From positions 186,001-250,000 of the forward strand of contig NZ_JSXI01000016.1 of the NCBI RefSeq assembly GCF_000803065.1: a stretch of 64,000 bases of DNA, given 5' to 3'. The notes below the pieces were generated by a model, which did no database searches, was not told the origin of the DNA, and saw only the letters and a list, made by a program, of their open reading frames with translations. A program made the translations under genes and the position numbers. Each line of letters begins with the position of its first letter. Positions within the stretch are counted from its first letter, which is position 1. Of the stretch, positions 5,225 through 38,097 are shown piece by piece. Source of the stretch: Sphingomonas sp. ERG5 (GTDB taxonomy: Bacteria > Pseudomonadota > Alphaproteobacteria > Sphingomonadales > Sphingomonadaceae).

Positions 5225-6778
5225 ATGATGAACCAGGACGAGAATTTATCGCAAGTACGGCGCAATTTCCTGAAAGTGGCGGCGATGACGGGTGTCGCGA
5301 CGCTGCTTCCCGGCGGCGCGTTCGCCCGCGCCGTGGCCGAGCCCGCAGCCGATTTCGCCAGCATGGACGCCACCGGTCTGGCCGCGGCGATCAAGGCGCG
5401 CAAAATCTCTCCGCTGGAGGCGGTCAATGCCGCCATCGCCCGTGCCCAGGCGGTACAGCCGCAGATCAACTGCATCAGCCAGGAACTGTACGATCGTGCG
5501 CGCAAGCATGTTCCCGCGATCAACCCGGCTGGACCGTTCGCTGGCGTGCCGATGATGATCAAGGACGAGGCCGACGTCGCCGGAACGGCGAAGCATTTCG
5601 GTTCCAAGCTGGACAAGCTGACGCCGATTGCGAAAGAGAATGACCAGTTGGTCGAGATGATCGAGCAATCGGGCTTCAACATCTTTGCTCGCACGACGAT
5701 GCCCGAGTTCGGCATCCTGCCGACCACTGAAACGCTTGCTTATGGCGTGACGCGCAATCCGTGGAATCTGGATCATACGCCGGGCGGATCCTCGGGCGGG
5801 GCGGCGGCGGCGGTTGCCGCCGGTATCATTCCATTGGCGCATGGTTCGGACGGCGCCGGCTCGCTGCGCATTCCGGGGAGCGTGTGCGGACTGGTCGGCA
5901 TGAAGCCGTCGCGCGATCGCCTTTCCGGCCCGTTGAGCATCGTCAACGGCAAGATGGATGTCAGCGGCTTTCTGGGTGAATCATTCTGCCTCTCGCGCAC
6001 CGTGCGCGATACCGCCAATATGCTCGCATTGCTTGAAATGAAGGGTGCCGGGGCGGTCTATCCACCGATCGGCAAGGTGACCGGGCCAGGCGCCAAAAGG
6101 CTGCGCGTCGGTTATATCATGAACAGTCTGGGGGATCATACGCCGGTGCCGGAAGTGGCCGAGGGCGTGAATTCGACGCTGAAACTGCTTGAATCGCTTG
6201 GTCATCATGTCAGCCCGGTCAAATGGCCATTCGACGGCGCGACCTTTGTTGAGGATTTCACCGTCGTCTATCTCGCCCGGGCCAACGAAGCCAAGAAGCT
6301 GCTTCCCCCGGGAACCAGTGTGGACCCCAAGATTCTGCGCGCGCTGGTTGAGCCTGTTTCCTTCAGCATGAGCCAATTGGCCGAAGACGTGCCGGAAGAC
6401 ATGGTGGCGAAATGCTATGCGCGCATCGCGGCGGCGTCCAAGGCCTATTTCGGGCTGTTCGACACCATTGATATCCTCGTCACCCCGGTCCTGCTCAAGC
6501 CGCCAGCCCGGATCGGCGACATCAACGGCTCCTTGCCGGTGGCGGTGGTGATGCAGCGGCTCAACAATTATGCCGATTATACCATGCTGCAGAACGCGAC
6601 CGGCGGACCCGCGCTGAGCTTGCCGATGCACTGGACCAGGGATGGCTTGCCGGTTGGCGTGCAGTTCGCCGGACCGTTGGGCGGCGATCGCGCGCTGCTG
6701 GAGCTCTCCTTCGAACTTGAGGCCGCTCAGCCCTGGGCGCAGCGTCGACCGCCGCTCTGGGCACCCTCCAAGGTCTGA
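5225..6778 (+). CDS. Amidase-signature hydrolase, Tat-exported
   Basis: 517 residues from ATG 5225, chosen because GAGGA sits 8 bases before it; an in-frame TTG at 5210 has no ribosome site. A Tat signal (VRRNFLKVAAMTG) precedes the amidase-signature domain. The Ser-cisSer-Lys triad is visible: Lys in MIKDEADVAG, the GGSSGGAAAAVAAG loop and GSDGAGSLRIPG. The family hydrolyses amides (glutamyl, aryl, aliphatic or fatty-acid); the substrate is unknown. The Tat signal suggests periplasmic action, as with the phosphatase before it. It is not GatA, which is cytoplasmic. Confidence 0.88.
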   Translation: MMNQDENLSQVRRNFLKVAAMTGVATLLPGGAFARAVAEPAADFASMDATGLAAAIKARKISPLEAVNAAIARAQAVQPQINCISQELYDRARKHVPAINPAGPFAGVPMMIKDEADVAGTAKHFGSKLDKLTPIAKENDQLVEMIEQSGFNIFARTTMPEFGILPTTETLAYGVTRNPWNLDHTPGGSSGGAAAAVAAGIIPLAHGSDGAGSLRIPGSVCGLVGMKPSRDRLSGPLSIVNGKMDVSGFLGESFCLSRTVRDTANMLALLEMKGAGAVYPPIGKVTGPGAKRLRVGYIMNSLGDHTPVPEVAEGVNSTLKLLESLGHHVSPVKWPFDGATFVEDFTVVYLARANEAKKLLPPGTSVDPKILRALVEPVSFSMSQLAEDVPEDMVAKCYARIAAASKAYFGLFDTIDILVTPVLLKPPARIGDINGSLPVAVVMQRLNNYADYTMLQNATGGPALSLPMHWTRDGLPVGVQFAGPLGGDRALLELSFELEAAQPWAQRRPPLWAPSKV

Positions 6779-7212
6779 TCGGATCGGCGGGCAAGTATAT
6801 TGGCAGTAACTTGTCCCGCTATATTTTGGGTTTCGCGTTGACGCTCGCTACACTGACTCGATTTGGCGAATTGCGGAGTGTTTTGGTTCCGTCGCAGTAA
6901 CAATAAGACAAAGACGAAGCCAGAATGCTCCGCCCGGACAGTGTTTCGCTGATGGACAGTCTTGTAGATAAGAGAAGATTACTGAAACTTGCTTTTTGAT
7001 TTGAAAAGGCTCAATACTGAGCGAACGTTAACAGCTTGTCAGGATGCCATTGCGTGCCTGGTCATCAGTGGATCGAGCGACTCTCGGTCATGGGCGTCCA
7101 CCGATCAGCGCGGTCCGGATGATGGTCGGTTATGCCGCAGTTTGACGGCGCAACGGCGCTTCGGGCAAGAGCCCCCAAACCTGAAGAGGTACATATCTTT
7201 GAGGCTGAATCG
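6779..7212. other. Intergenic region upstream of the TetR regulator
   Basis: 434 bases between the amidase stop and the preferred TetR start. It holds an AT-richer stretch (about 6960-7020) that may carry the promoter, but no clear palindrome, hairpin or convincing ORF was seen. If the TetR gene starts at ATG 7132, the last 80 bases are coding. Confidence 0.4.
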
Positions 7213-7887
7213 TTGAACAAGACTCCCCAGGTAAACGGCGCTTCCCAGAAAAAGACCCGGTCCAAACCGACCTTGATGCCCAAGCAAGCCCGCGCCATTC
7301 AAACCCGCGAGCATTTGCTCGATGTCGCCGGAGCGCTTCTCGCCGAGGTTGGCCTTGAGGATATCTCGACCAATTTGATCTGTGCTCGTGCGGGCATGAG
7401 CCCACCGGCGCTCTATCGGTATTTTGCCGACAAGCACGCCGTGCTGGAAGCGCTCGGCATGCGTCTGATGGAACGGCAGAATTCGTTGCTGATCGATTGG
7501 ATCGAAGGCAATATGAATCTGGGCATCGAGGGCATGCTCGAAAAGACCGAGGAGATTCTGCGGCGCACTGCCGAGATCACCGCGGCCGAGCCAGGCGGCA
7601 TCTGGATCGAACGCGCGCTGCACGCGTCCCCGAGACTGTCTCACATCCGCATCGAATCCCATCGGTTCGTGACGGACGCGCAACTCGAAATCGTTTCCGC
7701 GATGCTGCCGGATGTGCCCAGAGATGTCTTGTGGCGGCGGATCAGGTTCATGATCGAGCTCGCTTATGCCGCGCATGAAATGATGAGCGAGGAAGACCGG
7801 ATTTCGCCCGAGGCGGTTTATGCGGAAACCGGGCGCATGATGCGATTTGTGCTGCTGGGAGACGATGGCTTCGTAAAGGGAAGCTGA
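7213..7887 (+). CDS. TetR/AcrR family transcriptional regulator
   Basis: 224 residues from TTG 7213, which has GAGG 8 bases upstream; an in-frame ATG at 7132 (251 residues) lacks a ribosome site. After a basic leader, the HTH runs from IQTREHLLDVAGALL through DISTNLICARAGMSPPALYRYFADKHAVLEAL, a textbook TetR recognition helix (PPALYRYFADK). The C-terminal helical domain has no assignable ligand. It stands alone: the amidase upstream and the lipoprotein downstream are on the same strand but well spaced. Family certain, target unknown. Confidence 0.85.
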   Translation: MNKTPQVNGASQKKTRSKPTLMPKQARAIQTREHLLDVAGALLAEVGLEDISTNLICARAGMSPPALYRYFADKHAVLEALGMRLMERQNSLLIDWIEGNMNLGIEGMLEKTEEILRRTAEITAAEPGGIWIERALHASPRLSHIRIESHRFVTDAQLEIVSAMLPDVPRDVLWRRIRFMIELAYAAHEMMSEEDRISPEAVYAETGRMMRFVLLGDDGFVKGS

Positions 7888-28273: not shown

Positions 28274-28902
28274 GTCGCACTCCCGTTCCTGAACCCGATC
28301 TCGGCCAGTTCCGCGGCGATCATCCACTCCACGGCCTCGATCACGCGCTCCGCCTCGGCCAGGTCCTTGCCCCAGCCATACAGGCCATGGGCGCGGATCA
28401 GATAGGCCGGCGCGCTGCCGGGTTTAGCGAGCAAGGATGACATCTTTGCGTCGATCACTGCCATATCCTGGCTGTTGTCGACGATCGGCAGGACGATTCG
28501 TGTTTCGTGCGTCGTGGTGCCGGGCAGCGCCTTGAGCATCTCATGACCTTGCAGGGTCCAGCCGGTCAGGTCGGGAAAGGCCCGGGTCAGTCCGACGGCC
28601 GTGGCCGAATGGCTGTGCAGCACTGCGCCGGTCTCGGGAAAATCGCGGTACAGCGCCAGATGCAGGGCGGTTTCGGCGGACGGCTTCTTGCCGTCGAGCG
28701 AGGTGCCCGATGCGTCGACGCGCATCACATCGTCTTCGGTCAGCCGGCCCTTGTGCCGGCCCGAAACGGTGACCGCGAAGCTGCCGTCATCGAGCCGCAC
28801 CGAATAATTGCCCGATGTCGCCGGGGCCCAGCCCTTGCTGTCGAGCCAGCGCCCGACCGCGACGATACCGCTGCGTGCCTCGGCAAAGCTGCTGGCGGCC
28901 AT
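28270..28902 (-). CDS. mtnB: Methylthioribulose-1-phosphate dehydratase
   Basis: 210 residues, class II aldolase fold. Shows GWAPATSGNYSVRLDDG, SAETALHLALYRDFP, LHSHSATAVGLTR (HxH zinc pair), LQGHEMLKAL and YLIRAHGLYGWGKDLAEAERV (third His). Dehydrates MTRu-1-P to the diketone used by MtnC. First gene of the mtn operon. The tRNA-Gly gene lies 44 bases upstream in the same direction, so the operon promoter must sit near or share transcription with the tRNA. Confidence 0.94.
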   Translation of the reverse strand: MAASSFAEARSGIVAVGRWLDSKGWAPATSGNYSVRLDDGSFAVTVSGRHKGRLTEDDVMRVDASGTSLDGKKPSAETALHLALYRDFPETGAVLHSHSATAVGLTRAFPDLTGWTLQGHEMLKALPGTTTHETRIVLPIVDNSQDMAVIDAKMSSLLAKPGSAPAYLIRAHGLYGWGKDLAEAERVIEAVEWMIAAELAEIGFRNGSAT

Positions 28903-28945
28903 CGGGTCGATCCTCAGACTATGGATAAAGGGAGCGGTAGGAAAA

Positions 28946-29019
28946 TGGAGCGGGTAGCGGGAATCGAACCCGCGTATTCAGCTTGGAAGGCTGCTGCACT
29001 ACCATTGTGCTATACCCGC
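28946..29019 (-). tRNA. tRNA-Gly(UCC)
   Basis: Read on the minus strand: acceptor GCGGGTA pairs with TACCCGC, D-arm GCAC/GTGC, anticodon loop CTTCCAA with anticodon TCC (plus-strand bases 28985-28987), T-arm CGGGTTCGATTCCCG, discriminator T and an encoded CCA (28946-28948). Decodes GGA/GGG glycine codons. No repeat marking an integrated element was noticed beside it. Confidence 0.95.
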
Positions 29020-29161
29020 CTATGCCAGCGCCCGTCCGGTTCGAACGATTTGCCGACATGGTTCCGCCGTGCGGATAGCGTGGGGCGAATGTCCGCGCAA
29101 GTCGGCTGCGCACGTTCCAATCATGCTGGCCGTTTATGCTGGCGCTTGGCAAGCGGGCGCG

Positions 29162-29695
29162 ATGGTGCTTTGGACAGAGGCGATGGCGGAACTTCAACCG
29201 AGCGGCCTGGCCCAGGTCTTCATGGAAAGCCGTGAGCGATTGCTGCGGTTCCTTGCCGCGCGCGGTGCCGGGGAGGCGGCGGAGGATTTGCTCCAGGAAT
29301 TGTGGGAACGGGTGTCGGCGGCGCCGGCACAGCCGGTCGCGGCGCCGCTTGGCTATCTCTACCGCGCCGCCGAAAACCTGATGCGCGACCGGTATCGCGC
29401 CGATACCAGCCGGGCGCGCCGCGAACAGGATTATGTCGATGCGACTGACGCTGTCGTCGCCGAACCCGGTATCGAACGCGCGCTTTTGGCACGGGAAAGG
29501 CTGCGCGCGGTGGAGGCGGCGCTTTCCGCGCTTGGGCCGCGCGCGGAACAGGTGTTTCGCCAGTACCGACTGGACGGAGTCGGCCAGGCGGACATCGCGC
29601 GCAGTCTCGGGGTCAGCCTCAGTACGGTGGAAAAGGATCTGCAGCGGGCGTATCGTGCGCTCGGCGCGCTTCGGGAGAGCGACGATGCGGAATAG
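29162..29695 (+). CDS. fecI: FecI-like ECF RNA polymerase sigma factor
   Basis: 177 residues from ATG 29162; ATG 29183 is an alternative and neither has a strong ribosome site. Region 2: RERLLRFLAARGAGEAAEDLLQELWERV split around the helix and PLGYLYRAAENLMRDRYR. Region 4: LGPRAEQVFRQYRLDGVGQADIARSLGVSLSTVEKDLQRAYRAL, the FecI-type STVEKDL helix. It is followed by fecR and a receptor with an STN domain, the full cell-surface-signalling set. It should drive the receptor once FecR relays an outside signal. Confidence 0.92.
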   Translation: MVLWTEAMAELQPSGLAQVFMESRERLLRFLAARGAGEAAEDLLQELWERVSAAPAQPVAAPLGYLYRAAENLMRDRYRADTSRARREQDYVDATDAVVAEPGIERALLARERLRAVEAALSALGPRAEQVFRQYRLDGVGQADIARSLGVSLSTVEKDLQRAYRALGALRESDDAE

Positions 29696-29722
29696 CCCGA
29701 TCAGCTTCGTCTTGTCAGGGAC

Positions 29723-30682
29723 ATGCGCATGAACCCGCCCTTCTCCGACTCGATTCGCGACCAGGCACAGCTTTGGACGATCCGCCTGAGCGATGCCGCG
29801 TTTGATGATTGGGATGGTTTCACAGCGTGGCTGGAAGAGAATCCCGTCCATAACACCGCCTATGAGCTGGCGGTCGCGCACGATGCGTCGACCGTCGAGA
29901 CATTGCGGACGGCACCGCGCCCGATCATTCCTGCCATGCCCGCGGCTGTGCCGCCGCGTGTGTCGCGGCGCATATGGGTCGGCGGGGCGATGGCCGCTGC
30001 CATCGCCGGGGTCATCGGCTTTACGACGCTGCGCGACACGGCCTCGCCTTATATCGTCGAAACCGGGCCAGGCGTGCACCGCACGGTGACCCTCGCGGAC
30101 GGCAGCAGCATCATGCTCAATGGCGGAACGCGACTTCTGCTCGATCATGCCGCGCCGCGCCGTGCGACGCTGGAACGGGGCGAAGCGTTGTTTACCGTGC
30201 GTCATGACGATCGCGACCCGTTCGAGCTCAAGGTGGGCGGGACAAAGCTGGTTGATGTCGGCACGGTCTTCAATGTCGTGCGCGACGTCGGGGCAACGCG
30301 GCTCGCGGTGAGTGAGGGGGCGGTGATCTACGCCCCCGATGCCGATGCGGTCAGGCTCGATGCAGGACAAGCGCTTGTCGCGGCGGACGGTATTCGCCCG
30401 GTCAGGGTGCAGGTCGAGGCGACAAGCGTCGGCGCCTGGCGGAGTGGACAGCTGGTTTACAGCAATGCCCCGCTGGCAACCATTGCCGACGATCTGTCGC
30501 GCAATCTGGGCAAGCCGGTCAGTGCGACCGGGACTGCCGCAGCGCTGACGTTCACCGGAATCATCAACCTCGACACCAAGGCGGCCGATCCGATCGGGCC
30601 GATCGCGCCATTGCTTGGCGTCCGGGCCGAGCGTAATGCGCTGGGCTGGACTCTGACCCGGCCGGACCGTGCACCTCGCTAG
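29723..30682 (+). CDS. fecR: FecR-type sigma regulator
   Basis: 319 residues. N-terminal cytoplasmic DUF4880 region (RDQAQLWTIRLSDAAFDDWDGFTAWL, with NPVHNTAYE), one transmembrane helix about residues 82-102 (RRIWVGGAMAAAIAGVIGF), then the periplasmic FecR domain (VHRTVTLADGSSIMLNGGTRL, GEALFTVRHD, VGTVFNVV, VSEGAVI) and a C-terminal STN-like part (LVYSNAPLATIADDLSRN). It relays the receptor state to the sigma factor. Its end overlaps the receptor start by 14 bases. Confidence 0.92.
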   Translation: MRMNPPFSDSIRDQAQLWTIRLSDAAFDDWDGFTAWLEENPVHNTAYELAVAHDASTVETLRTAPRPIIPAMPAAVPPRVSRRIWVGGAMAAAIAGVIGFTTLRDTASPYIVETGPGVHRTVTLADGSSIMLNGGTRLLLDHAAPRRATLERGEALFTVRHDDRDPFELKVGGTKLVDVGTVFNVVRDVGATRLAVSEGAVIYAPDADAVRLDAGQALVAADGIRPVRVQVEATSVGAWRSGQLVYSNAPLATIADDLSRNLGKPVSATGTAAALTFTGIINLDTKAADPIGPIAPLLGVRAERNALGWTLTRPDRAPR

Positions 30683-33149
30683 ACCTCTTCTTGCCATAAC
30701 CTGCATGATCGCCGCGACCTCGGCCGAGGCGCGGGAGCGGCGCAACGTCAACGTGCCCGCGATACAACTCGACCAGGCGATCGTCCTGCTCGGACGTCAG
30801 ACCGGCGCGAGCATCGGGCTGCGCGATCGGCGCGTGGCCACGCTCAAGGTGCGCGCCGTCAACGGAAAACTCGATCCCGCGCAAGCACTTGCGACGATGC
30901 TGCGCGACTCGGGTGCGATGGCGCGGCAGGTTGCGCCGGGGGTGTTCGTCGTCGAAGCTGCGGCGCCAATGCCGACCAACCGGCCAAGAGCCGCATTCAG
31001 GCCGGCGCCGCCACCCGAACCGAGCGAGGCGATGGGCGATATCATCGTGACGGCCGCCAAATATGATCGGCGGCTGCGCGATTTGCCGGGCATGGCGGCA
31101 ATCGTCCAGGGACGCGATCTGTCGTTCGCCGAGAGTGGTTTGGGATCGGACGCGATCGAGGCGCGCGTCGCCAGCGTTGCCTCGACGCATCTCGGCGCGG
31201 GGCGCAACAAGCTGTTCATTCGCGGCGTTGCGGATTCGAGCTTCACTGGCCCGACCCAGTCGACCGTCGGTCAATATTGGGGTGATACGCGGATCAACTA
31301 TAGCGCGCCCGACCCGAGTCTCAGGCTTTACGATGTCCGCTCGGTCGAGGTGCTGGAAGGGCCGCAGGGTACGCTCTATGGAGCGGGCTCGCTCGGCGGG
31401 ATCATCCGCATCGTGCCCGAAGTGCCGGGCATGGGGCTGGCCTCCGCGCGGGCATGGAGCGGCCTTTCCGCCACCCAGCACGGCAAGCCCGGCGGCGATG
31501 CGGGGGTGATCGTCAACTTGCCGGTCTCGGGCGACACATTGGCTATTCGCGGGCTCGCTTATGGCGGCATCGATGGCGGCTATATCGATGATCGCGGACG
31601 CGGCCTCCGCGACGTCAACCGGGTCGAGACGATCGGTGGGCGCGCGACACTGCGCTTTTCCCCCAGCGATGACTGGACGGTCGATATATCGGGCAATTAC
31701 CAGCGTATCGCCGGCGATGACGCGCAATATGCCGACCGTCATGACCTCAGCCGGTCGAGCGCGCTTGCCCAGCCCTATCGCAATAAATATCTGCTCGGCG
31801 AAATCGTGATCGCCAAGGATTTCGGGCAGGCGCGCCTGGTCTCATCGACCGGCATCGTCGACCAATATGTCGCAGAACGCTTCGACGCGACGCCGCCGGG
31901 CGGCCTGGCCAAGGCCTATGACCAGGTCAGCCGGATCAGGATGGTCAGCTCCGAAACCCGCCTGTCGCATAGCGGCGAGAATGGCGATGGCTGGGTAATT
32001 GGCGTGAGCGCGCTGAGCACCATCACGCGCCAGAACCGAACCTTCGACCGGCAATTCGTGCAAGCGGACGAGGCGGTGGGTGCTTATGAACTGGTTGCCT
32101 TTCCCGTGGTGGGGCCGGGTGGGCTGGTCACCGTGCCCTTCCTCACCTCGGATGTGGTCGGGGTCCGCAATCGCGTCGATGAGGCGACATTGTACGGAGA
32201 GGCGACGATCGTGCCGTTGCCCTGGCTGTCGCTGACTGGCGGTGGGCGGCTGACCCATTCACGGCTGTCAGGCCGGGCGCTTGACCGCCCCGAAGAACTG
32301 GAGTTCCGTCTCGACCAGGAAGCGCAGGGCCAGCGCACCGAGACGCGCTTTCTGCCGTCGCTTGCCGTCTCGCTGCGCCCGGCCGATCGGATCACCGCCT
32401 TCATTCGCTATCAACAAGGCTATCGTCCCGGCGGCCTGTCGGTGGGCACAGACATCGTTCAATATTATAAGGGCGACGAAGTCGAGACCGGGGAGATCGG
32501 TCTACGCTATGCCGGCACTCATCGCTTCGACATATCGCTTACCCTTGCTCACACGCGCTGGCGCGACATTCAGGCCGATTTGATCGACACATCGGGGTTT
32601 CCGATCACCGCCAATATTGGCGACGGCCGGATCACCTCGGCGGGGGTCAGCGCGCATTGGCGGCCCGTACCGCGCCTTGAGCTGCAGGGCGCGGTCTATC
32701 TCAACAAGTCCGAGGTCACGACGCCGACGGCAGCACTCGTCGCAGCCTATGCCGCCGACAAGAGCGGGCCGGCGCAACCCCATGCCGCGAAACGTGCCGG
32801 GCCGTCGCTGCCCAATGTCGCGGATGCGAGCGGGTTGGTCAGGGCGCGCTATTCGGCGCCGTTTGGCAATATCGGCTATTTCACGCTCGATGCCTATGCA
32901 CGCTATGTCGGTCAGTCGCGGCTCGGCATCGGGCCGGTGCTGGGTCGTCCGCAGGGTGATACGCTCGATACCGGCATCGAGCTCAGGTTCGGCGATGAGC
33001 GCCGGGGACTGACCGTGTCGCTGACCAATCTGCTCGATGAAGAAGGTAATCGGTTTGCTCTGGGCAGCCCGTTCCTGATGAACGGGGCGAACCAGATCAC
33101 CCCGCTTCGCCCGCGCAGCATCCGCATCGGTTTCGATGCCAGCTTTTAG
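30669..33149 (+). CDS. TonB-dependent receptor with N-terminal signalling (STN) domain
   Basis: 826 residues, GTG start inside the end of fecR. Signal peptide to about residue 22, STN domain about 25-95 (VNVPAIQLDQAIVLLGRQTG, FVVEA), linker with Pro-rich stretch, TonB-box-like GDIIVTAAKYD at about 123, plug (LFIRGVADSSF, VEVLEGPQGTLYGAGSLGGI), and a 22-strand barrel ending RIGFDASF. The STN domain passes the ligand-bound state to FecR. Iron-siderophore or another scarce nutrient is likely; the ligand is not readable. Confidence 0.94.
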   Translation: MHLARPLLAITCMIAATSAEARERRNVNVPAIQLDQAIVLLGRQTGASIGLRDRRVATLKVRAVNGKLDPAQALATMLRDSGAMARQVAPGVFVVEAAAPMPTNRPRAAFRPAPPPEPSEAMGDIIVTAAKYDRRLRDLPGMAAIVQGRDLSFAESGLGSDAIEARVASVASTHLGAGRNKLFIRGVADSSFTGPTQSTVGQYWGDTRINYSAPDPSLRLYDVRSVEVLEGPQGTLYGAGSLGGIIRIVPEVPGMGLASARAWSGLSATQHGKPGGDAGVIVNLPVSGDTLAIRGLAYGGIDGGYIDDRGRGLRDVNRVETIGGRATLRFSPSDDWTVDISGNYQRIAGDDAQYADRHDLSRSSALAQPYRNKYLLGEIVIAKDFGQARLVSSTGIVDQYVAERFDATPPGGLAKAYDQVSRIRMVSSETRLSHSGENGDGWVIGVSALSTITRQNRTFDRQFVQADEAVGAYELVAFPVVGPGGLVTVPFLTSDVVGVRNRVDEATLYGEATIVPLPWLSLTGGGRLTHSRLSGRALDRPEELEFRLDQEAQGQRTETRFLPSLAVSLRPADRITAFIRYQQGYRPGGLSVGTDIVQYYKGDEVETGEIGLRYAGTHRFDISLTLAHTRWRDIQADLIDTSGFPITANIGDGRITSAGVSAHWRPVPRLELQGAVYLNKSEVTTPTAALVAAYAADKSGPAQPHAAKRAGPSLPNVADASGLVRARYSAPFGNIGYFTLDAYARYVGQSRLGIGPVLGRPQGDTLDTGIELRFGDERRGLTVSLTNLLDEEGNRFALGSPFLMNGANQITPLRPRSIRIGFDASF

Positions 33150-33327
33150 CAGGAACAGGCCGCCGTTGCCGAAATACGCTCTCCCACGCGTTTTCAGATA
33201 GACGCGTAAAAATTCCTCTGCGGGTTTGCTCGACCGGTTCCGTCTGAATGTCGGGGAGGGGCCGCGCCCGATAAGCTCAAATAATGGGCGTTTCTTTCCC
33301 GAGCACATCAGCTTGCCCGAGGAACGT
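33150..33327 (+). promoter_or_regulatory. Spacer with candidate ECF-type promoter for the autotransporter
   Basis: 178 bases between receptor and autotransporter. It carries AAAAATT (33208-33214), CGGGTTT (33221-33227) and CGTCTGA (33241-33247). This layout resembles FecI-family promoter regions of sphingomonads, in my recollection, and would place the start about 80 bases before the ATG. No terminator hairpin follows the receptor, so read-through is also possible. Confidence 0.25.
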
Positions 33328-36300
33328 ATGCGTCATTTGCTAGCCACGACCTGTCTCACACCGATCCTTTTCGCCGCACTGCCGGCCGCCGCGCAGACCA
33401 CGATCACCACCAAGGTGACGACGCCGGTATTGACCGCCACGGCGGCCAACGGCCAGCCTTCGGACGTCACCATCACCTCGACCGGATCGGTCGAACCGAC
33501 CGGCGGCAATGCGGTCACGCTCAACAGCGCGAACAATATCAAGAATGAGGGTAAGATCCTCATCACCGACGCCAACAACGCGAACGGCATCTTTGTCGCG
33601 GCAGGCGGTTCGGGCACGATCACCAATAGCGGTTCGATCGTGATCGACGAAACCTATACCCCGACCGATACCGACAAAGACGGCGATCTCGATGGACCGT
33701 TTGCGCTGGGCACCAATCGCTTCGGCATTCGCACCGCCGATGGCGTGGGTTTCACCGGCAGCATCGTCAACAGCGGTACGATCACCGTTGAGGGCAATGA
33801 TTCGGGCGGCATCCGGCTTGGTGGGCCAGTGACCGGATCAGTCACCAGCAGCGGCACGATCACCGTCACGGGTGACCGGGCGGTCGGTGTGCGCACCGAT
33901 GCGGTCTCGGGCAATGTGAAGCTGAGCGGCACGATCACCGTGCAGGGTAAGGATGCGGTCGGTGTTGCGGCCGATGGCGACATCGGCGGGCAATTCTCCG
34001 TCCAGGGCAATGTCACTGCGTCCGGATATCGCAATATCGCCGGTGACCCGGCCAAGCTCGACGCCGACGATTTGCTGCAGGGCGGTCCGGCTGTCCGCGT
34101 TTCGGGCAATGTCGGTGGTGGCATCCTGTTCGATGCGCCGCCGCCGGATCTGAATCCTAACGACCCCGACGAAGACAAGGACGGCATCCCCGACAAGGAC
34201 GAAGGTACCGCCAAGATCGTCTCAAACGGCGCGGCGCCCGCAGTGGTGATCGGATCGGCGACGCGCGACCTGACGATCGGTGCAGTGGCCGGCGATACGG
34301 GCAATCATTCGGTCGTGGTCAAGGGATCGATTGCCGGTAACGGCATCTTTGCGGGGGTCGATGGGACCGGCATGTCGATCGGCGGCCAGGGCAGGGCGGT
34401 CAATCTCGGCAACGGCATTTCGGTTTCCGGCACCGTCGCAGCGACCAGCAAGGCGAACGCCACCGCGTTGAAGGTCGGTGCGGGCACAACGATGCTGGAA
34501 ACGCTGAACAGCGGTACGATCACGGCCACGGGCGGGACGGATTCAGCGCATCAGACCCGCGCGATCTCGGTCGAGACCGGCGCGTCGATGCCGACGTTGC
34601 GCAACTCGGGCACGATCAGCGCCGCGACGGCGGGTCAGGGCACCGCGACCGCGATCTACGACGCATCGGGCACATTGAAGCTGATCGAAAATAGCGGCGT
34701 TATCGGCGCGAGCGGATCGACCGATGCGAGCCGTAACATTGCGATCGATCTTCGCTCGGTGACGAGCGGCGCGACCATCAAGCAACTGGTCGCCGCGACC
34801 GGCAAGGCCGCACCCTCCATCTCGGGCGCGATCCTGCTCGGCAGCGGCAATGACCTGTTCGATCTGGCGGACGGATCCTATACCGGCACGGTCGATTTCG
34901 GCGCGGGCGACAACAAGTTCGCCTTGAGCGGCGATGCTGTGCAGAGCGGCGGAATCCGCTTCGGCGCGGGCGCCGACACGCTGTCGCTCGCCGGTACCGC
35001 CAAGACCAATGGCGATGTCCTGTTCGGGGCCGGGGCCAATACCATGACCCTTGCCGACGGCACATCGCACACCGGCCGCATCCAGTTCGAAGGGGGCGCC
35101 GACACGCTCACGCTGTCGGGTACCTCGAAGATCACCGGCGATGTCGATTTCGGCTATGGTGCCGATACCCTGACTCTGGGAGCCGGCACGTCAATCCGTG
35201 GCAATCTGTTCCGGGCGAACGGCGCTGCGGCAAACATCTCCGGCCTGCTTGACCTTACCAATACCGGTTCGGTCGCGCTGTCGTCGCTCAATGTCACGGC
35301 GACGGGCATGATCGGCGTCAACATCAACAGCGTGACCGGCACTGTCACGAGCTACGACGTGTCCGGCAATGCAACTTTTGCCGCCGGGTCGAAGGTGCTG
35401 GTGCGTCTCGACAGCGTCACACGGGCGCAGGGTGTCTACACGATCGTCCGCGCGGGCAGCATCACGGGCGGCAACAACCTGGCGGCCAGCGACATGCTGT
35501 TGCCTTTCCTGTTCACCGGCAGTCTCGCAACCGATCCGACCAACACGTCGATCAAGCTGACCATCGCGCGCAAGAGCGCCGCACAGCTTGGTGTCACGAC
35601 CGGCTCGGCCACGGCATTGGACGCGGTTCTCGCGGTGATCGACAAGGATGCGAAGATCTCGGCGACGATCCTTGCGATCGGCGATGGTGCGACATTCCGC
35701 CAGCGTTATTCGAGCTTTTTGCCCGATTATGCCGGCGGTGCGTTCGAATCCGTCACTCAGGCATCGCGTGCCACCGCCCGGTTCCTGCAGGATCCCAACC
35801 CGAATGTCACCGATATGGGAGCATGGGGTTTCTGGTTGCAGCAGGTGGCGTGGGGCACGTCGAAGAATCTCGGCAGCACCTCGGCCTATGACGTCAACGG
35901 TTATGGCGTCAACGGCGGGATAGAAATCAGCCTGGGCGGCGCGGGACGCGTCGGCGTCGGGCTGGCGTATCTGAGCGGCACCGATGGCGATGGGTCGAAC
36001 GACAACGAGATCCAGTCGAGCCAATACGAAGCGGCGGTGCACTGGCGCGGGCGCTGGGGTGGTCTGGCGGCAAGCGCGCGCGCCTCGGCGGCGACGATCA
36101 ATTTCGACAGCGTGCGGCGTTTCGACGGCAGTTTCAACAATCAGGCGTTCAATCGTACCGCGGACGGCAAATGGAACGGCAAGCTCTATTCCGCCGCTGG
36201 TACGCTTTCCTATGACCTGCGGGTCGGCAAGCGGCTGCATTTGCGCCCGATCGCCGCGGTCGATTACTACCGCTTGACCGAGAAGGCACATGCCGAGACG

Positions 36301-36663
36301 GGTGGCGGCGACGCCTTCAACCTGATCGTCAGCCAGCGCAAGAGTGACGAACTCGCGGCAACGGGTTCGGTCGCGCTCGGCTATGACTTCGGCAGTCTCG
36401 ATCCCGAAGGCATGTGGCTGAGAGTCAATGTCGAGGGCGGTCGCCGCGAACTCGTCGGCGGGTCGCTCGGCGCGACGGTGGCACGCTTCTCGACCGGCAA
36501 CAGCTTCACGCTGACGCCGGAAGATCGCAAAAGCGGCTTTATCGGCCGGCTCGGCGTGTCCGGTGGCCGCGGACCGTTCGCTCTCTCGGCCGAGGCCAGC
36601 GCGGAACAGCAGCAGGGCCATGCCGCAGTCGCGTTCCGGCTGGGGTTGAAGATCGGCATGTGA
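33328..36663 (+). CDS. Type Va autotransporter, large Gly/Thr-rich adhesin-like passenger
   Basis: 1111 residues from ATG 33328 (GAGGA 5 bases upstream; starts MRHLLATTCL with signal cleavage near AAAQT). The passenger, residues about 25-820, is a predicted beta-helix built on recurring NSGTITV and FGAGADTLTL units; three AGCGG(T/C)ACGATCACCGT copies at 33772, 33850 and 33925 repeat every 25-26 codons. A calcium-binding-like insert (NDPDEDKDGIPDKDEG) lies near residue 280. The barrel starts near residue 828 (GAWGFWLQQVAWG) and runs to the end. Surface display or release is expected. Confidence 0.9.
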   Translation: MRHLLATTCLTPILFAALPAAAQTTITTKVTTPVLTATAANGQPSDVTITSTGSVEPTGGNAVTLNSANNIKNEGKILITDANNANGIFVAAGGSGTITNSGSIVIDETYTPTDTDKDGDLDGPFALGTNRFGIRTADGVGFTGSIVNSGTITVEGNDSGGIRLGGPVTGSVTSSGTITVTGDRAVGVRTDAVSGNVKLSGTITVQGKDAVGVAADGDIGGQFSVQGNVTASGYRNIAGDPAKLDADDLLQGGPAVRVSGNVGGGILFDAPPPDLNPNDPDEDKDGIPDKDEGTAKIVSNGAAPAVVIGSATRDLTIGAVAGDTGNHSVVVKGSIAGNGIFAGVDGTGMSIGGQGRAVNLGNGISVSGTVAATSKANATALKVGAGTTMLETLNSGTITATGGTDSAHQTRAISVETGASMPTLRNSGTISAATAGQGTATAIYDASGTLKLIENSGVIGASGSTDASRNIAIDLRSVTSGATIKQLVAATGKAAPSISGAILLGSGNDLFDLADGSYTGTVDFGAGDNKFALSGDAVQSGGIRFGAGADTLSLAGTAKTNGDVLFGAGANTMTLADGTSHTGRIQFEGGADTLTLSGTSKITGDVDFGYGADTLTLGAGTSIRGNLFRANGAAANISGLLDLTNTGSVALSSLNVTATGMIGVNINSVTGTVTSYDVSGNATFAAGSKVLVRLDSVTRAQGVYTIVRAGSITGGNNLAASDMLLPFLFTGSLATDPTNTSIKLTIARKSAAQLGVTTGSATALDAVLAVIDKDAKISATILAIGDGATFRQRYSSFLPDYAGGAFESVTQASRATARFLQDPNPNVTDMGAWGFWLQQVAWGTSKNLGSTSAYDVNGYGVNGGIEISLGGAGRVGVGLAYLSGTDGDGSNDNEIQSSQYEAAVHWRGRWGGLAASARASAATINFDSVRRFDGSFNNQAFNRTADGKWNGKLYSAAGTLSYDLRVGKRLHLRPIAAVDYYRLTEKAHAETGGGDAFNLIVSQRKSDELAATGSVALGYDFGSLDPEGMWLRVNVEGGRRELVGGSLGATVARFSTGNSFTLTPEDRKSGFIGRLGVSGGRGPFALSAEASAEQQQGHAAVAFRLGLKIGM
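33772..33941 (+). repeat. In-frame passenger repeats of the autotransporter
   Basis: AGCGG(T/C)ACGATCACCGT occurs at 33772-33788, 33850-33866 and 33925-33941, spaced 78 and 75 bases (26 and 25 codons). Each encodes a SGTITV rung of the beta-helix. Further diverged copies lie near 33613 and 34510. They could recombine and change passenger length. Confidence 0.75.
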
Positions 36664-36668
36664 AGGTC

Positions 36669-36702
36669 CGAACCGTCCCTCGCTCCGGCGGGGGACGGTT
36701 CG
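36669..36702 (+). terminator. Hairpin terminator after the autotransporter
   Basis: Perfect 11-bp stem CGAACCGTCCC / GGGACGGTTCG around a 12-base loop, starting 6 bases after the stop. No strong U-tract follows. Confidence 0.65.
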
Positions 36703-36792
36703 AAGATCATCCTGTCTTTACCGCCAAATCATCACCGCGCGGCGCGCGCGCCGATAGATCCTTCACGGCTTGCTTACCATTCGGCCGTATCA

Positions 36793-38097
36793 GTGGCGGT
36801 CATGTTTCATGATACCGCACTCGCCCGCGCCGCAAAGGCCGACCCTCGGCCGAAATCGGCCGTCAGCGCGGGCTGCGGCATGGCTGGCCTCGCCGGCTTG
36901 CTGATCTGGATCGCGCTGGCGCGCCATTACAATATGGATGGCCCTTACGCCGCGCTGGTCAATGTCGCCGCATGCGGCGTGCCGATGGTATTGTGGTCGG
37001 TGCTGGTCGACAAGGTTCACCTCAATCCGACGACCGGTGTCGATTGGTTGTCACCCAGGCCGTGGCGCGAGACGCTCGATATCAGCCTGGCCAAGCTCGC
37101 CGGTTTGTGGGCCACCTGGGCGGCGATCGCGCTGATCTACGCCACCGGGCGATTCTATTGGCAAGGCAATTTCCAATTCGCGATGTGGTGCTTCCAGGTC
37201 GCGGCGCCTGCCTTGTTCATCCTGTCGGTCCCTTATGTGCTGTGGATGGACCGCCGCCTGGTCGAACCGAAAGACGGTGCGTGGGCGCTCGGAGCCTGGT
37301 TGATGGGCCTCAAGGAGCCGGTCGCGAAGGAAGCAATCTATAATCACTTGCGCAGCTGGGCCGTGAAGGGGTTCTTCCTCGCCTTCATGCTCGCGATCGT
37401 GCCGGGTGGTTTTGGCGAATTCATCCGCGGCGATGTCTCGCAGGTGCTGCGCGACCCGGTCGCGCTCGCCAACTGGCTGATCACCTTCATGTTCCTGATG
37501 GACGTCGCGTTCGCGACGGTTGGCTATATCCTCACGTTCCGCGCGCTCGATTCGCATATCCGCAGCGCGACGCCGTACGCCGCCGGCTGGATGAGCGCGC
37601 TGATCTGCTATCCGCCGTTCATCCTGATGGGCGATAATGGACCGCTGGATTATCATCCCGGCACCTCGGAATGGTCGGTCTGGTTCGCCGGGCATCCGAT
37701 CATCCTGACATTGGTCGGTGCGGTGCTGGTCGGGCTGACCGCAATCTATGCCTGGGCGACGATCGCCTTCGGCTTCCGCTTCTCCAACCTGACGCATCGC
37801 GGTATCCTGACGCACGGGCCGTACGCCTTTTCGCGCCACCCCGCCTATCTGTCCAAGAACCTGTTCTGGTGGATCTCGGTCATCCCGTTCCTGACCACCG
37901 GCAGCCTGACCGATGCGGTGCGCGCGACGATCCTGATGGGCGTGGTCAGCGGCATCTATTACTGGCGCGCGCGGACGGAGGAATGGCATCTCGGCCTTGA
38001 CCCGGCCTATCAGGAATATTCCGCCTGGATGGCGCGCAACGGGCTGGTTCCGCGCTTCTTCGCCTGGGTGATGGGCAAGCCGCTGCCGACCAAATAG
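36793..38097 (+). CDS. Multi-pass membrane protein with isoprenylcysteine methyltransferase (ICMT)-like C-terminus
   Basis: 434 residues; GTG 36793 or ATG 36802 may be the start. About ten transmembrane helices. The C-terminal part has the ICMT/PEMT-type signature GPYAFSRHPAYLSKNLFWW, then EEWHLGLDPAYQEYSAWM, which binds S-adenosylmethionine in related enzymes. The N-terminal half (VDKVHLNPTTGVDWL, DVAFATVGYILTFRALDSHIRS) is not in the short ICMT family, so this is a longer relative that may methylate a lipid. Convergent with the ECF42 gene after only 15 bases. Confidence 0.7.
   Translation: MAVMFHDTALARAAKADPRPKSAVSAGCGMAGLAGLLIWIALARHYNMDGPYAALVNVAACGVPMVLWSVLVDKVHLNPTTGVDWLSPRPWRETLDISLAKLAGLWATWAAIALIYATGRFYWQGNFQFAMWCFQVAAPALFILSVPYVLWMDRRLVEPKDGAWALGAWLMGLKEPVAKEAIYNHLRSWAVKGFFLAFMLAIVPGGFGEFIRGDVSQVLRDPVALANWLITFMFLMDVAFATVGYILTFRALDSHIRSATPYAAGWMSALICYPPFILMGDNGPLDYHPGTSEWSVWFAGHPIILTLVGAVLVGLTAIYAWATIAFGFRFSNLTHRGILTHGPYAFSRHPAYLSKNLFWWISVIPFLTTGSLTDAVRATILMGVVSGIYYWRARTEEWHLGLDPAYQEYSAWMARNGLVPRFFAWVMGKPLPTK

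Follow-up and report, generated by a model that had tools for sequence, protein, structure and literature searches.

A FecI-like sigma cassette linked to a type Va autotransporter gene in Sphingomonadales, with a predicted promoter whose −35 base matches the sigma recognition helix

The genes for a FecI-like sigma factor, a FecR-like regulator, a TonB-dependent receptor and an autotransporter lie in this order on the plus strand of Sphingomonas sp. ERG5, according to the list of open reading frames (ORFs). They occupy positions 29162 to 36702 of the window, which is the whole 64,000-nucleotide (nt) stretch of contig NZ_JSXI01000016.1 that was analysed; this segment ends 39 nt past the autotransporter stop codon (36663). 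All coordinates are positions in the window, and L-numbers denote loci fetched for comparison. An earlier note on this sequence proposed that the three signalling genes are followed on the same strand, after 178 bases, by a 1111-residue autotransporter, and that an outside signal controls this surface protein. The ORFs and profile matches confirm the genes, their order and the spacer. Sequence comparison indicates that the four genes very probably constitute one signalling unit, in which an outside signal would control the expression of the autotransporter via the sigma factor. The features of the locus are as follows.

29162-29695, plus strand: FecI-like extracytoplasmic function (ECF) sigma factor, 177 residues, identified by ORF and profile matches; one of the 151 sigma cassettes read
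Upstream of 29162, plus strand: the sigma ORF is open from a GTG at 29069
29633-29644, plus strand: codons K158 to Q161 in the region-4 recognition helix (TVEKDLQ), with 158 and 161 determining the class
29687-29712, plus strand: another predicted sigma-dependent site, GCGGAAT-N10-GCTTCGTCT, immediately 5' of fecR and overlapping the stop codon of the sigma gene
29723-30682, plus strand: FecR-like anti-sigma/sigma regulator, 319 residues (PF04773); an alternative start at 29729 is possible
30669-33149, plus strand: TonB-dependent receptor/transducer, 826 residues, with a GTG start inside fecR (overlap)
33208-33214, plus strand: AAAAATT, an element picked out in the earlier note; not conserved and not a −35 element
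33220-33245, plus strand: predicted sigma-dependent autotransporter promoter, GCGGGTT-N10-GTTCCGTCT, with −35 CGG and −10 CGTC
33246-33327, plus strand: putative 5' leader of the autotransporter mRNA, its first part conserved in the three nearest loci
33328-36663, plus strand: monomeric (type Va) autotransporter, 1111 residues, ATG at 33328, PF03797 beta-domain

The sigma protein contains both sigma-70 region 2 and sigma-70 region 4, as do ECF sigma factors. The strongest hydrophobic stretch of FecR begins at residue 84 and has the character of a membrane segment, as judged by hydropathy only. A regular expression for a Gly-Thr motif in FecR matches the window protein and 65 of 151 relatives, but many of the aligned pieces are partial and nothing is built on this motif. 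The receptor matches the TonB plug and barrel and is FpvA/FecA-like. Its residues 20-253 are aligned to the signalling domain and plug of FpvA, and its residues 10-99 are aligned weakly to FecA, far below the cut-off of that model. The earlier note called this protein an STN receptor. Pfam STN is not matched in the window receptor itself, but it is matched in seven of 22 aligned orthologues, and these matches together with the FpvA and weak FecA alignments indicate an N-terminal signalling domain. The receptor gene ends at 33149 and the autotransporter ATG is at 33328, leaving the spacer of 178 nt.

Linkage of this cassette to the autotransporter is common in relatives. An autotransporter match with an E-value of 1e-20 or below is found in 74 of 295 genomes of the genus, and the neighbourhoods taken from 72 of these 74 give 77 loci, including five second copies and the window. 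In 67 of the 77 loci, the autotransporter gene has a sigma gene of the same family on its own strand no more than 6.5 kb away, before it in 40 and after it in 27. A set of named relatives gives a similar picture: 80 loci were kept among at least 245 relatives from Sphingomonas, Sphingobium, Sphingopyxis, Novosphingobium, Altererythrobacter, Croceibacterium and other genera, and 72 of them have the sigma gene (55 before and 17 after the autotransporter gene). The named set overlaps the genus set, so that the two are not independent and are not to be summed. Loss of linkage in relatives, which the earlier note had set as a result that would speak against its proposal, is not found; linkage is widely kept in the order. 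No cassette accompanies the weak autotransporter homologues (25-33% identity) in seven loci fetched from other families of the order. In a class-wide sample, an autotransporter match with an E-value of 1e-30 or below is present in 10 of 289 genomes, that of the window included. One record, L247, is titled Microvirga sp. SRT01, but its match place is the same as that of contig G122:C3 of the window's own genus, and the record name is probably wrong.

A common element was first seen when the sequences upstream of the autotransporter genes were set side by side. Its final form is [A/C]GG-N17-CGTC, and in the window it is placed at 33221-33244 before the autotransporter gene and at 29688-29711 before fecR. 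Of 139 sigma-linked cassettes, 137 have this element 5' of the autotransporter gene; the background rate is 0.054 (about 5%) per 160 nt. The chance expectation of the first form of the CGG-type pattern is 0.003-0.004 per 200 nt of one strand, both in the loci themselves and in a reversed control. An apparent difference of 1 nt in spacing between the AGG-type and CGG-type promoter classes vanished once the sites were aligned on GG, and the spacing is N17 in both. In contrast, the element is missing in 14 of 15 genus and order autotransporter genes without an adjacent cassette, six of these 15 being distant relatives; two weak homologues (L060 and L013), in which the autotransporter could not be placed, were left out of this count. 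The sole exception is L113, which has a receptor of the cassette type about 8 kb from the autotransporter gene. The element is also missing in L200, L223 and L229, three named loci that apparently are truly without the cassette, and is present in L222 and L226, two of the named loci without a sigma gene in the fetched sequence.

In the window and its two nearest loci (L048 and L105), the block containing the site is conserved, and about 60 nt of the spacer immediately upstream of it are found in the window alone. The site is thus conserved while the adjoining spacer is gained or lost. The earlier note had listed AAAAATT, CGGGTTT (33221-33227) and CGTCT (33241-33245) as words resembling FecI-family promoters. 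The CGG within CGGGTTT and the CGTC within CGTCT, 17 nt apart, are shared with relatives and are likely the −35 and −10 elements of the autotransporter promoter. AAAAATT, however, was rejected as a −35 element because it is not conserved across the nearest loci: it is partly retained in L105 (AAAATTT) and replaced in L048 (CCTTTTGT). It may be an upstream A+T element at most. A regular expression combining an A-tract with CGTCT was dropped: it matched nothing in the window piece, and its eight matches among the 16 other FecR stretches of the genome were scattered and showed no recognisable common element. A sigma-70 start in the spacer that is unaffected by the sigma factor was the other result that the earlier note had named as telling against its proposal. 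A simple consensus scan of the plus strand from 28500 to 38000 detects no sigma-70-like site, this being a crude test in this phylum. A weak terminator-like hairpin of five pairs lies at 33275-33289, 3' of the site and within the predicted leader of the autotransporter mRNA. It is probably due to chance; terminator-like matches in the region number 10, against 5.7 expected.

To relate the site to the sigma factor, the recognition helix and the base preceding GG were read separately for each cassette. A site was called by the first patterns in 143 of 151 sigma cassettes, and removal of near-identical sigma factors left 95 non-redundant ones. Sixty-nine of these are R-type (S, A or G at 158, then R at 161) and 26 are Q-type (K and Q); the last R-type row (L049-type, with a LES helix) was read by eye. 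Before the autotransporter gene, R-type sigma factors are accompanied by AGG in 68 of 68 cases and Q-type sigma factors by CGG in 18 of 18, without any crossing among the 86 non-redundant sites. Among 159 comparable columns of the sigma alignment, positions 158 and 161, both in the recognition helix, are the only ones at which the two classes share no residue. The window sigma factor is Q-type (K158/Q161), and its site is CGG. Nine cassettes without a close autotransporter homologue have a class-matched site, picked from matrix matches, before other genes. At the fecR junction, the site is CGG-type in all 26 non-redundant Q-type cassettes and AGG in 33 of the 69 R-type cassettes. The fecR site of the window is not among the best matrix matches of the window. 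The conserved, class-matched sites have the sequence properties of promoters that depend on the cognate sigma factor, and the promoter assignment is strengthened because the sigma helix matches the −35 base. Together with the linkage, this match supports the earlier proposal that an outside signal may control the gene of the surface protein.

Several observations weigh against this interpretation. Ten of the 77 genus autotransporter genes have no sigma gene in the fetched DNA. These are L151 (in which the receptor is adjacent and the contig starts there), L113, L138 and seven more, the autotransporters of which are 35-40% identical to that of the window. In four of the eight named loci without a sigma gene (L210, L222, L226 and L274), the contig covers little or nothing of the side on which these genes would be expected; L232, apparently without the cassette, carries a CGG-type site. 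Twelve sigma-FecR-receptor cassettes were fetched because a close autotransporter homologue was lacking; they show that the switch also exists without this autotransporter, and in three of them (L173, L174 and L181) no site was assigned. By the final rule, the site is missing in L233, in which the autotransporter match starts at residue 73 and the start is therefore poorly placed, and in L239. It is also missing in L210 and L274, the autotransporter genes of which lie beside the receptor gene at contig ends. The fecR-junction site of the R-type cassettes is missing in 33 of 69 and is CGG-type in three of 69. Because every member of the non-redundant set comes from a cassette with a called site, the set tests the class of the site and not its presence. 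The class changes three times on the best tree, and only one of these changes is forced by well-supported branches. The concordance between helix and base may therefore go back to one to three evolutionary events, and phylogeny accounts for part of it. When the matrix is built with the window's clade left out, the window site takes sixth rank in its 18-kb stretch (the corresponding sites rank fourth in L105 and first in L048); with the matrix of all clades, two positions on the minus strand in the next gene score above it. Judged alone, the window site is modest evidence for a promoter; it becomes convincing through the comparison with relatives.

If the four genes act as one unit, the receptor would bind an extracellular ligand and signal through its N-terminal domain to FecR, as its family suggests, and FecR would release or activate the sigma factor. 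The sigma factor would read [A/C]GG-N17-CGTC, here with CGG, through the helix containing K158 and Q161, and would start transcription at two places. The start before fecR and the receptor gene would reinforce the sensor, and the start before the autotransporter gene would bring a beta-helix protein to the surface. In the 27 genus loci in which the autotransporter gene comes first, the sigma gene is located downstream of the site and would be part of its own output. In the window, no site of this type is listed before the sigma gene. A block at 29058-29087, between the sigma gene and a divergent tRNA-Gly gene (28946-29019, minus strand), is conserved in three loci. It was considered as a sigma promoter, but it adjoins the divergent tRNA-Gly gene and may belong to it.

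The autotransporter gene could instead be transcribed by read-through from the receptor operon, the spacer site being no promoter. The gap of 178 nt is short, the two genes are on the same strand, and the one weak terminator-like match in the gap, which follows the site, does not provide a clear stop. However, the gap between the receptor and autotransporter genes is about 0.7 kb in a clade of 19 loci, and in the two that were read in detail (L124 and L125) it contains a gene on the opposite strand, with a weak DUF697 match in L124, which argues against read-through. In both of these loci the site stands directly 5' of the autotransporter gene. In addition, all 27 genus loci with the autotransporter gene first have the site 5' of it and the sigma gene close behind, and retention of the site amid the gains and losses of spacer described above also speaks against read-through, which is considered very unlikely. 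The linkage could also reflect co-inheritance in the neighbourhood, with the autotransporter gene having a housekeeping promoter. Autotransporter genes without a cassette do exist, as in the ten genus loci mentioned above. Nevertheless, linkage persists whether the sigma gene lies before or after the autotransporter gene, the site accompanies the cassette and is mostly missing where there is none, the helix and the −35 base co-vary, and the plus-strand scan, crude as it is for this phylum, offers no sigma-70-like site. Co-inheritance is, if anything, slightly less probable than read-through.

Alternatively, a different FecI paralogue of the strain might recognise the site. The genome contains 17 FecR loci in total, and 15 of the 16 other FecR stretches gave a FecI-like match. 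Moreover, matrix matches in three of these stretches (L074, 16.5; L067, 14.4; L071, 13.9) outscore the window site (13.7). These three matches, however, are all AGG-type and not CGG-type, and none of the FecI-like matches at the other FecR stretches has EKDLQ. In the 5.74-Mb draft genome, CGGGWT-N10-GYTCCGTC has a single exact match, at this site; when one mismatch is allowed, there is no enrichment genome-wide (11 matches versus 9 in the control). The class of the site also follows the adjacent sigma factor. Recognition by a paralogue is therefore the least probable of these explanations, with very little weight.

The nature of the putative target was examined with a structure model of the autotransporter, which was built from 46 aligned sequences and has a mean pLDDT of 88. 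In the model, the protein consists of a beta-helix passenger (residues about 23-750), linker helices (about 751-821) and a barrel (about 833-1111). Its C-terminus, a PF03797 barrel with a helical linker, is like the barrels of EstA, NalP and EspP, as in type Va autotransporters. In structure comparisons of the model, the barrel matches EstA with a Z-score of 30.3, and the passenger matches Vag8 with a Z-score of 28.3 over 399 aligned residues and pertactin with a Z-score of 18.1. Further fold matches are tailspikes and polysaccharide-active enzymes. The sequence identity to the closest solved folds is 14-19%, and no function is transferable from EstA, Vag8 or pertactin. The model indicates that the protein is likely a beta-helix protein placed at the surface; its passenger may be exported. 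The label "adhesin", used in the earlier note, is a guess from a fold that is common to adhesins, enzymes and tailspikes. The passenger has Asp-rich DxDxDG loops that are invariant or nearly so (D114-D122 and D281-D289, encoded at 33667-33696 and 34168-34203) and have the look of calcium sites. In L105 (G068:C1:674985-678316), the nearest relative with 87% identity, the autotransporter match is interrupted near residue 864 and continues in another frame, due either to a sequencing error or to a broken gene. A BFVD entry, A0A6J5KUW0, is annotated as an autotransporter and assigned to an uncultured Caudovirales phage. Its alignment to the model spans most of the length, with an E-value of 8.9e-31 but a TM-score of only 0.24; it is phage-borne or mis-binned.

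Signalling from a FecI/FecR-type pair to a secreted surface protein is already known. In the PUMA3 system (VreA-VreR-VreI) of Pseudomonas aeruginosa a FecI-type sigma factor and a FecR-type regulator raise the expression of adjacent TpsA/TpsB genes, and linkage to two-partner-secretion genes recurs in other species (PMC2729926). The present locus resembles PUMA3, as described there, in probably directing FecI/FecR-type signalling to an adjacent gene for a large secreted surface protein. It differs in that its receptor is of full length, whereas VreA is transducer-like only in its N-terminal half, in that the target is a one-piece type Va autotransporter and not a two-partner (type Vb) system, and in that class-matched sites are present at two places in the locus (PMC2729926). 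It is therefore not a PUMA3-type system, and what appears to be new is the one-piece autotransporter as the target. With the FecI-FecR-FecA and FpvA-type systems, the locus shares a sigma factor, a regulator, a receptor with a signalling domain and a sigma-dependent promoter, here a predicted one; those systems drive iron-carrier transport genes, whereas here a surface protein is the additional conserved target (PMC9249621). The autotransporter itself is like known type Va proteins, with an EstA-like barrel and a beta-helix passenger like those of Vag8 and pertactin, at the low identities given above. Control of an autotransporter by FecI/FecR was not found in the open-licence PMC literature, among the titles and abstract starts of the matches listed. 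In the available part of a Collimonas paper, autotransporter adhesins and fecIR are mentioned separately and are not linked (PMC12542777). A term search of one SYK-6 iron paper gave no match (PMC8599685), and the words autotransporter, FecI, FecR, sigma factor, STN and adhesin do not occur in PMC7142613. By a rough count, the tags SLG_04340 to SLG_04380, given in another iron paper on SYK-6 (PMC7376174), fall close to the SYK-6 locus L253; they could not be mapped.

The same type of site precedes other genes in cassettes without a close autotransporter homologue. In L175, L176, L178-L180 and L183, the genomes of which have no match or only a distant one for this autotransporter, it precedes an M23-peptidase-like ORF. 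In L176, L177, L180 and L182 it precedes an HpcH-aldolase-like ORF, which is divergent to the M23 ORF where both are seen. These families were tested with Pfam in L176 only, in which the M23 peptidase lies at 6254-6919 on the plus strand and the HpcH/HpaI-type aldolase at 5303-6112 on the minus strand. L184 has sites at 7296 and 11465, before the sigma gene and before a glycosyltransferase/Wzz-like/ABC-2 cluster, a layout that makes control of polysaccharide export by signalling possible. The gene directly after the receptor gene in L183 (5378-8104, minus strand) encodes a 909-residue protein with YadA head repeats, which would be a trimeric-autotransporter-like protein in place of the monomeric autotransporter. 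L181 encodes a 313-residue protein, the C-terminal part of which resembles the autotransporter barrel (30% identity by tblastn) and which matches no Pfam family. These cassettes suggest that the switch serves envelope functions more generally. Systems of the FecI/FecR/receptor kind are usually regarded as switches for nutrient uptake; here a conserved putative target in many members of the order is a surface protein. We consider it likely that Sphingomonadales possess a widespread module that couples a sensed external molecule to type V surface display, in which helix residues 158 and 161 (S, A or G with R, or K with Q) choose A or C before GG, and which is re-used for an M23 peptidase, an HpcH-type aldolase and polysaccharide export. 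If so, the sensing of outside molecules and the display of cell-surface proteins would be one circuit, and a promoter code of one base and two residues for FecI-like sigma factors would permit prediction of targets in many sphingomonad systems. In three loci, a divergent site (L054:5959, plus strand; L155:8809, minus strand; L163:11016, plus strand) faces a gene for a secreted-looking protein of 81 residues, which is rich in Ala, Gly and Ile, ends in GDDSDSN and is conserved in the three.

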